A DNA stretch of 64,000 nucleotides from Nitrososphaeria archaeon (GTDB lineage: Archaea; Thermoproteota; Nitrososphaeria; Nitrososphaerales; JAAOZN01): the NCBI GenBank assembly GCA_029775855.1, contig JARVJZ010000003.1, positions 124,001-188,000 on the forward strand. Direction: 5' to 3'. The notes under the pieces are model-generated. The model was given only the letters and a program-made list of their open reading frames with translations. It did no database searches and was not told where the DNA came from. This document shows, one piece after another, positions 8,754 through 51,014 of this stretch. Every line of letters begins with the position of its first letter. Position 1 is the stretch's first letter. The translations under genes were made by a program, and so were the position numbers.

Positions 8754-8794
8754 CAATTATTACCAAGTACTCAACAAGAGGATAGGTGCTTAGT

Positions 8795-9190
8795 ATGAGT
8801 AAACCTGTTGATTTAGGAAGTGTTAAAGAAGGTTCGTATATAATCATAGATGGCGAACCCTCAAAGATAGTTGAATACGATAAATCTAAGCCTGGTAAAC
8901 ACGGCGCTGCTAAGGCTCGTGTAGTGGCTATAGGGTTGTTTGATGGTGTTAAGAGGAGCTTCGTTTCACCAGTCTCTGCTAATGTTGAAGTTCCTATAAT
9001 TGAAAAAAGGTCGGCGCAGGTGATTTCAATCTCTGGTTCGAATGTTCAACTGATGGATCTTGAGACCTTTGAGTATTTTGATTTACAGATGCCGGTTGAG
9101 GAGGAGATAAAATCTAAGATTCAACCCGGTGTTGAAGTTGAATATTGGCGGACTATGGGTAGAAATAAGATTATGAGAGTTAAAGGTTAA
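8795..9190 (+). CDS. eif5a: Translation factor aIF5A (hypusine-containing)
   Basis: Binds the ribosome and helps form difficult peptide bonds. The modified lysine is Lys35 in the [10 protein letters not shown] loop, the site of deoxyhypusine/hypusine formation. The N-terminal KOW-like barrel and C-terminal OB fold together give 131 residues, the normal archaeal length. ATG 8795 is chosen over GTG 8786 because GGTG at 8785-8788 lies 6 bases before it. Deoxyhypusine synthase is not in this window. Confidence 0.95.
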
Positions 9191-9232
9191 AGAGGTCAGT
9201 AAACTCTATAGGTTAATGGTGTAAATTAAATT

Positions 9233-9301
9233 GAGGGCCTAGATGATCCTTGGAAGAGCCGTCTGAGCTGTGATGACGAATCAGAGTGGAGATGGGCCCT
9301 C
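9233..9301 (+). ncRNA. Candidate C/D-box sRNA (2'-O-methylation guide) with kink-turn terminal stem
   Basis: Seen in sequence: a 9-pair terminal stem (9233-9241 with 9293-9301, one G-U pair), a 3-base bulge (242-244), tandem sheared G-A pairs (9245-9246 with 9291-9292) and a further short stem (9247-9249 with 9288-9290): a complete kink-turn. Inside are a perfect D' box CTGA (9263-9266) and a perfect C' box GTGATGA (9270-9276), 3 bases apart. Guide lengths are 13 (9250-9262) and 12 (9277-9288), matching archaeal C/D sRNAs. The terminal C and D boxes depart from consensus, but the changed C-box/D-box pair is compensated (C248-G289). A weak TATA-like ctctatagg at about 9203-9212 would start transcription near 9233. 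Targets were not identified; both guides would place the methyl group on a C. Confidence 0.6.
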
Positions 9302-9318
9302 ATGTTGAGCGTATAGAT

Positions 9319-10026
9319 ATGAAGGTCGCAGTAGTGTATTCAGGTGGCAAAGACAGCACAAGAGCGGTCTATGAATGTTTAAAGGCTGGGTATACTGTTA
9401 GCTGTCTACTGACCATAATACCAGAAGCTTTTGGAAGCTACCTCTTTCACTACCCTAATGCTCGGTGGACTAAGCTGCAAGCTGAAGCGATGGATCTGCC
9501 CTTGTTGAGTAAAGAGGTGAGTGGCGCTGAGGATGATGAGTTGAATGCGCTCAAGTTTCTTTTGGCTGATGCTGTTTCTAAATATTCGGTTGATTGTTTG
9601 TGTAGCGGTGCTGTGGCTAGCGTGTATCAGAGAAGTAGGTTTGATAAAGTAGCGTCAAGTTTAGGTCTAAAGTGTGTTAACCCGCTCTGGGGATTAGATG
9701 ATGAACAGATTTTAAGAGACCTCATTGGGCTAGGCTTTAAGACAATTGTTGTAGGTGTTTCCGCAGCTGGTTTAGACTCAAGGTGGTTAGGAAGGGTTAT
9801 AGATGAAGATGCCATAGAAGAGCTAAAGAAAATTAAGAAGAAATATGGAGTAAACCTCTCCTTCGAAGGCGGAGAAGCTGAAACATTTGTGTTAGATGCA
9901 CCGATGTTCAAAAAACGAATAGAAATTGTATCCTCAGAGGTATCTTGGGATGGCTACATAGGTTTTCTGCTCATAAAAGATGCGAAGCTTGTAGAGAAGG
10001 AAAGCGTTAAAGTTGGGTCAACCTAA
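9319..10026 (+). CDS. Diphthine--ammonia ligase-like ATP pyrophosphatase (Dph6 family)
   Basis: Likely performs the last step of diphthamide synthesis on elongation factor 2, amidating diphthine with ATP. It begins directly with the PP-loop, MKVAVVYSGGKDSTRA, and has the family motifs SGAVASVYQRSR (near residue 103) and the C-terminal LSFEGGEAETFVLDAPMF segment with its conserved glutamates. I choose ATG 9319 because homologues begin about two residues before the PP-loop strand, and because the earlier in-frame GTG (9286) and ATG (9292) fall inside the candidate sRNA. The stop is followed after 11 bases by srp54. Confidence 0.87.
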   Translation: MKVAVVYSGGKDSTRAVYECLKAGYTVSCLLTIIPEAFGSYLFHYPNARWTKLQAEAMDLPLLSKEVSGAEDDELNALKFLLADAVSKYSVDCLCSGAVASVYQRSRFDKVASSLGLKCVNPLWGLDDEQILRDLIGLGFKTIVVGVSAAGLDSRWLGRVIDEDAIEELKKIKKKYGVNLSFEGGEAETFVLDAPMFKKRIEIVSSEVSWDGYIGFLLIKDAKLVEKESVKVGST

Positions 10027-50714: not shown

Positions 50715-51014
50715 CTACACTATGTCGCCTTCTAGCTTCCTAGCAAGCTTACCCTTCAACTTTATATTGAGGTTAAAGTCTTCAGGCTTCACCACGTCAG
50801 ATGTTATTCTTTTTATCACCAGACCGCATCTGTTATCTGGCAGAAGCTTGTTCCTTACGCACTGAGCATATGAGCAAGAAGGGCCTACACATACATCATT
50901 CAACCAGCTGCACCAAATCGTATGCCCACGTATTAACATAGCTCTCTTAGCGCATTTGAAGGATATGCATCTTGGCCAGCATCTACCATTGCTGTCGGGT
51001 CCCTCATGGGGCAA
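50715..51014 (-). CDS. Small protein with eight cysteines, function unknown
   Basis: A 99-residue protein not assigned to a family. Eight cysteines fall in the first two thirds: positions 12, 16, 21, 35, 42, 47, 52 and 63. The first half therefore could bind two Fe-S clusters or several zinc ions. The C-terminal third is basic and cysteine-free. No signal peptide, so it is probably cytosolic. TTG 51014 is the start; it has no close partner gene on the same strand (glutamate dehydrogenase ends 65 bases upstream). It ends 8 bases from the convergent DUF998 gene. Confidence 0.65.
   Translation of the reverse strand: MPHEGPDSNGRCWPRCISFKCAKRAMLIRGHTIWCSWLNDVCVGPSCSYAQCVRNKLLPDNRCGLVIKRITSDVVKPEDFNLNIKLKGKLARKLEGDIV

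Follow-up and report, generated by a model that had tools for sequence, protein, structure and literature searches.

Archaeal C/D-box sRNAs are short RNAs in which a terminal stem closes a kink-turn with a 3-nt bulge and tandem G·A pairs, consensus D' and C' boxes lie 3 bases apart, and guides of about 12 nt place a target C at the fifth pair from the box. We analysed a window of 64,000 nucleotides (G000:C3:124001-188000 of a 1.5 Mb archaeal genome) in which an element at positions 9233-9301 has the same length, terminal stem, kink-turn and internal organisation, but differs in its terminal boxes, which read AUGAUCC for C and GAGA for D, and in its kink-turn, where U·U is replaced by U-A and G-C by C-G. 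Judged from comparative sequence evidence, this element is very probably an archaeal C/D-box sRNA, with a D' guide directed at helix 90 of 23S rRNA and a kink-turn kept by compensatory changes. A search of Rfam with the element reported nothing at family cut-offs, in keeping with an earlier sequence-only reading which held that consensus searches would miss the terminal boxes, and a search of open papers with exact terms found none on C/D sRNAs of this order.

Three described RNAs come closest. SNORD49 (RF00277; Plasmodium snoR28, RF01604), which targets 28S C4456 in helix 90 (PMC12288042), shares the guide letters GGAAG-GCCGUC with a D' box directly after them; one base separates its guide letters, GGAAGUGCCGUC, from the D' guide, and its 4-box geometry differs from that of the archaeal sRNA. 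The orthologue L117 scored 22.1 bits against the SNORD49 model, which does not reach the gathering cut-off of 37. Below the Rfam cut-offs, Pyrococcus sR41 (RF01126) is the best match to the orthologues in families f8 and f10 (E 4.5e-5), although this match rests on the boxes and the D-side guide and not on the D' guide. Lastly, sR49 guides tRNA-Met Cm34 (PMC2584109), and the D guides of f7, f8, f10 and f13 likewise match tRNA-Met C34, whereas the D guide of the window has lost this match.

Architecture and conservation of the element

The main features of the element are readily located in the window (Table 1). The D' box CTGA and C' box GTGATGA noticed from the letters alone are present 3 bases apart and match the consensus, and the two guide regions have the proposed lengths of 13 nt (9250-9262) and 12 nt (9277-9288); the terminal boxes of the genus fail the RUGAUGA and CUGA consensus. 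The full kink-turn is also found: the bulge GAU (9242-9244) is followed by G9245·A9292, A9246·G9291, U9247-A9290, C9248-G9289 and C9249-G9288, and G9288 may pair with C9249 instead of guiding. The 9-pair terminal stem proposed alongside it forms in this genome, with one U-G pair, but its outer two pairs are lost in both congeners, which retain only 7 pairs (9235-9241/9293-9299); across the genus the stem has 7-10 pairs.

Table 1 Coordinates of the predicted sRNA, its parts and adjoining features in the window
Feature	Position	Strand	Size	Basis or remark
C/D-box sRNA gene (predicted)	9233..9301	+	~65-71 nt	Genus core identity 97-98%; order-wide orthologues
Terminal stem, 5' arm	9233..9241	+		Pairs with 9293-9301; covaries across families
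Box C position, AUGAUCC (consensus RUGAUGA)	9243..9249	+		Sequence; invariant in genus
D' guide, GGAAGAGCCGU	9252..9262	+		Ten contiguous pairs; guide-target co-change
Box D', CUGA (consensus)	9263..9266	+		Sequence; order-wide occurrence
Box C', GUGAUGA (consensus)	9270..9276	+		Sequence; C/D boxes at orthologous loci
D guide, CGAAUCAGAGUG	9277..9288	+		Genus-invariant; orphan, without significant target
Box D position, GAGA (consensus CUGA)	9289..9292	+		Sequence; kink-turn register
Terminal stem, 3' arm	9293..9301	+		Covaries across families
Conserved upstream block, AGTAAACTCTATAGGTTAAT	9198..9217	+		Kept in three genomes; possible promoter
Dph6-like diphthamide synthase gene, favoured start	9319..10026	+		Pfam PF01902 from residue 1; homologue starts

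The core of the element (9236-9299) is markedly better conserved than its surroundings. The two congeners retain 63/64 and 62/64 of its bases (97-98%), compared with 63% and 45% identity at third codon positions of dph6 and 45-71% at those of the neighbouring genes; the 15 bases directly upstream of the element are 67% and 43% identical. Only two core positions vary among the three genomes, 9250 in the linker and 9267 in the D'-C' spacer, and both guides, all boxes including the atypical C and D, and the kink-turn-proximal stem are invariant. Around the D' core, the highest-scoring terminal kink-turn outscored those in 300/300 dinucleotide shuffles of the flanks. The conserved upstream block contains CTATAG about 26 bases before 9233, at the distance expected for an archaeal TATA box, and is a possible promoter.

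Scanned with a loose C-D'-C' pattern, the window gave two matches, one of them this element, compared with 0.21 expected; at least two matches arose in 2/100 shuffles. The sole other match lies on the minus strand at 50779-50818.

The D' guide, its predicted target and its distribution

The sequence-only reading anticipated an rRNA or tRNA complement in which the fifth pair from the box holds a C, and the D' guide does match the organism's own 23S rRNA, with guide and target changing together across genomes. Ten contiguous Watson-Crick pairs join 9252-9261 to 23S positions 2623-2632, with C2626 at the fifth position opposite G9258, and the box-adjacent U9262 opposes a U. C2626 aligns with position 2512 of the annotated 2906-nt E. 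coli 23S, which we take to be C2510 in standard numbering since GATGT occupies 2502-2506 there. Methylation is predicted at 23S C2510 (E. coli numbering), in helix 90 near the ribosome's catalytic centre. Guides have been called where nine or more consecutive Watson-Crick pairs extend across the fifth position (PMC4644070); the D' guide has ten and the D guide falls short of nine. Helices 90-93 are a hotspot of predicted archaeal methylation (PMC4644070).

By shuffling alone this match is suggestive (p 0.07), and the deciding evidence, which gives the target direct comparative support, is the joint change of guide and site. In most families the guide GGAAGAGCC faces 23S CGGCTCTTCC, and CGGCTCTTCC is the site in the organism's own genome and in the genomes read from f2, f3, f4, f5, f7, f8, f9 and f11. 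In the f10 (Nitrosopumilaceae-like) genomes tested the site is CGGCTTTTCC (5/5) and the guide GGAAAAGCC, the f10 sRNAs carrying GGAAAAGCCG in place of GGAAGAGCCG, such that a guide G to A is matched by a target C to T in 5/5 genomes, although these genomes are related and the co-change may represent one event. The sole exception is locus L121 of G020 (f3), which has the f10-type guide GGAAAAGCC with the common target CGGCTCTTCC; this genome has an estimated contamination of 5%, and the combination may reflect either contamination or a tolerated A·C mismatch. No 23S match was found in the congeners G001 and G002, so the target reading covers the organism's own genome and the other families.

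We take 28S C4456 to be the same nucleotide as E. coli C2510, and the predicted site is then apparently that of eukaryotic SNORD49. The shared guide letters do not prove common descent, however, because the target itself is conserved. One may postulate a single ancestral guide RNA, older than the split of archaea and eukaryotes, that methylated this peptidyl-transferase-proximal cytidine and gave rise to both the D' half and SNORD49, the other half of the RNA being free to change its guide and even its boxes; we regard this scenario as improbable.

A 15-mer spanning the D' guide and D' box, GGAARAGCCGTCTGA, occurs in 83/151 genomes of the order, once in each, whereas the reversed pattern used as a control gave zero matches in the same 151 genomes. 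In most of the 66 loci read the 15-mer lies inside a C/D-like RNA, and guide matches outside the order, in a sample of the phylum, were sporadic and lacked C/D boxes. L116 in G023 was set aside as a chance match, the genuine sRNA of that genome being L219. The order appears to include ammonia oxidisers, judged by sister families. The element would add to the known set a guide RNA that is kept across an order of archaea and unreported by Rfam at its cut-offs, with one predicted methylation beside the peptidyl transferase centre.

The terminal kink-turn across the order

Covariation of the stem in relatives had been named as support for the structure, and it was found in a hand alignment of 58 orthologues together with a MAFFT alignment of 13. 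The whole structure scored 0.806, compared with 0.295 for shuffled alignments (0/500) and at most 0.145 when the structure was slid along the alignment; 98.7% of stem cells are paired, and all six stem pairs have changed on both sides. The kink-turn alignment omitted L072-L077, L102, L106-L108 and L116, in which the simple search placed the kink-turn unreliably, and the constancy of the tandem G·A pairs arises partly by construction, since the search demands G-A on both strands.

The pairs beyond the G·A tandem are variable. At 3b.3n the commonest state is U·U; this genus has U-A, some members of f8 and f11 have G-C, and much of f11 is mismatched; at 4b.4n G-C is commonest, and C-G is found in this genus only. 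The flipped C-G and the U-A in place of U-U singled out by the sequence-only reading are thus matched changes that keep the kink-turn and are fixed in the genus; its term "compensated" fits this genus, as one of several departures in a family whose other members have also drifted at these positions. The orthologues of f2 and f4 combine D CUGA with C AUGAUGU, and these consensus-like boxes indicate that the departure arose inside the family. We consequently claim membership among the sRNAs from orthology and the kink-turn and not from the letters of the terminal boxes. The same D' guide is accompanied by the terminal D boxes CUGA, CAGA, CCGA, AUGA, GAGA and UCGA; this series provides natural material for asking which letters L7Ae and Nop5 need, and the family shows that searches for consensus boxes undercount such RNAs.

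Ordinary box C/D kink-turns need protein to fold. A Watson-Crick pair at 3b.3n prevents folding by metal ions alone (McPhee et al., PMC4382518), and with U-A at this position the kink-turn described here should need L7Ae to fold. L7Ae requires tandem sheared G·A pairs and a 3-nt bulge that holds the box C uridine (PMC7994747), and the corresponding sequence features are present, with U9244 in the bulge beside the two G·A pairs. L7Ae would bind and fold both the terminal kink-turn and the D'/C' k-loop, on which Nop5 and fibrillarin would assemble, and fibrillarin would 2'-O-methylate the C2510 equivalent during large-subunit assembly. In this genus the terminal motif may serve mainly as an assembly anchor, with the rRNA guide carried by the consensus D'/C' half.

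The second guide, the neighbouring gene and alternative explanations

The D guide reads CGAATCAGAGTG in the genus (complement ACTCTGATTC) and is invariant in three species, and no target above chance was found for it in the organism's own 23S, 16S and 30 tRNA loci. It appears to be a constrained orphan; orphan guides are ordinary (PMC7994747). The complement of the D guide reads ACUCUGA, which made tRNA-Gln(CUG) a candidate, but the loop of the organism's tRNA-Gln was read as CUCUGGA and does not match. When one mismatch was allowed, the matches within the genus lay in other places, such as an L44e-like ribosomal protein gene. Introns interrupt many tRNA genes of this genome (L050, L053, L061-L064, L066-L071); 31 tRNA matches were found, and several were probably missed on account of introns.

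In f7, f8, f10 and f13 the second guide is GATTATGAGT, which matches the anticodon arm of tRNA-Met(CAU) with C34 at the fifth pair (p 0.005 with the organism's own tRNA-Met as proxy) and also matches the tRNA-Met arms of G027 and G008, which carry introns. tRNA-Met C34 is a known archaeal target (PMC2584109); no second sRNA with a tRNA-Met guide was found in the organism's own genome, G001 or G002, nor was one with strict C-D'-C' boxes in the organism's own genome. At L033, L117 and other f8 and f10 loci a single sRNA seems to serve as guide for 23S C2510 as well as tRNA-Met C34; among Pyrobaculum tRNA-targeting sRNAs, the other guide has been reported without a target (PMC7994747). At L085-L099 (f11) the D-guide region GCCAAACC complements the linker GGTTT after box C, so that an internal stem seems to have taken the place of the second guide; the terminal D box there has degenerated strongly (UCGA, AAGA). 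At L104 and L105 (f4) the D guides ATATCGAGGA and AAATCGAGGA are partly complementary to LSU 2613-2622 of the window's organism, ACCTCGATGT, just 5' of the D' target, suggesting two adjacent 23S sites, although this match is not significant alone (p 0.39).

An alternative for the window's own D guide is that it methylates helix 69 of 23S at the equivalent of E. coli 1916, which would make the element an ordinary double-guide rRNA sRNA. This is its best rRNA match, with 9/11 pairs to 23S AACTCTGACTC and seven contiguous across the fifth position, in another hotspot of predicted methylation (PMC4644070), and the guide is invariant within the genus. We nevertheless consider it unlikely, as shuffled guides reach the same score half the time (p 0.52), the pairing falls below the usual nine contiguous pairs (PMC4644070), and in other families the D guide points to tRNA-Met.

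Other alternatives concern the neighbouring gene. Along the window aIF5A (8786-9190) precedes the element, which is followed by the Dph6-like diphthamide synthase gene, SRP54 and Pus10. The Dph6-like protein is 83% identical to that of an uncultured Nitrososphaerales archaeon, the closest relative with a name. If the dph6 frame started at GTG 9286 or ATG 9292, the conservation would be partly protein coding, and indeed no stop interrupts this frame in the three genomes of the genus (VEMGP[HQ]VE...), start codons inside C/D sRNAs occur, 5' overlaps affect 7% of genes surveyed, and sRNA overlaps with neighbouring genes are ordinary (PMC7994747). Differences at 9302-9318 among the three genomes change amino acids, however, and homologues start at an ATG equivalent to 9319, many with in-frame stops upstream; an upstream start would also leave the conservation of 9236-9285 unexplained. 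The proposed move of the gene start to 9319 is favoured, although the open frame in 3/3 genus genomes leaves a small chance of an overlapping start. Conserved coding through 9286-9318, named beforehand as refuting the sRNA, is absent outside the genus (in-frame stops or unrelated sequence), and within it the frame is open. We conclude that the gene most likely starts at 9319 and view an upstream start as very unlikely. The element ends 17 bases before this start, and it could instead act in cis, as a kink-turn of the dph6 mRNA 5' leader bound by L7Ae for translation control, and not as a trans guide; L7Ae leader kink-turns exist in archaea, and such control is reported for L7Ae mRNA itself (PMC5539422, PMC6298567). 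This we hold to be extremely improbable, given that conservation is highest in the guide with its D' box, which co-varies with 23S, and given where the orthologues lie.

The predicted sRNA is directly upstream of dph6 in f1, f4, f5, f7 and f10. It lies about 730 bases upstream in G003 (f2), downstream in f11 (about 60 bases in G012 and 1.3 kb in G043), and about 3 kb away on the opposite strand in f9. The neighbourhood varies while the guide stays constant, which points to a trans-acting RNA. The f9 loci L074-L077 are unusually long members of the family, with hairpin-like inserts at two places, one between box C and the D' guide and the other separating D' from C'.
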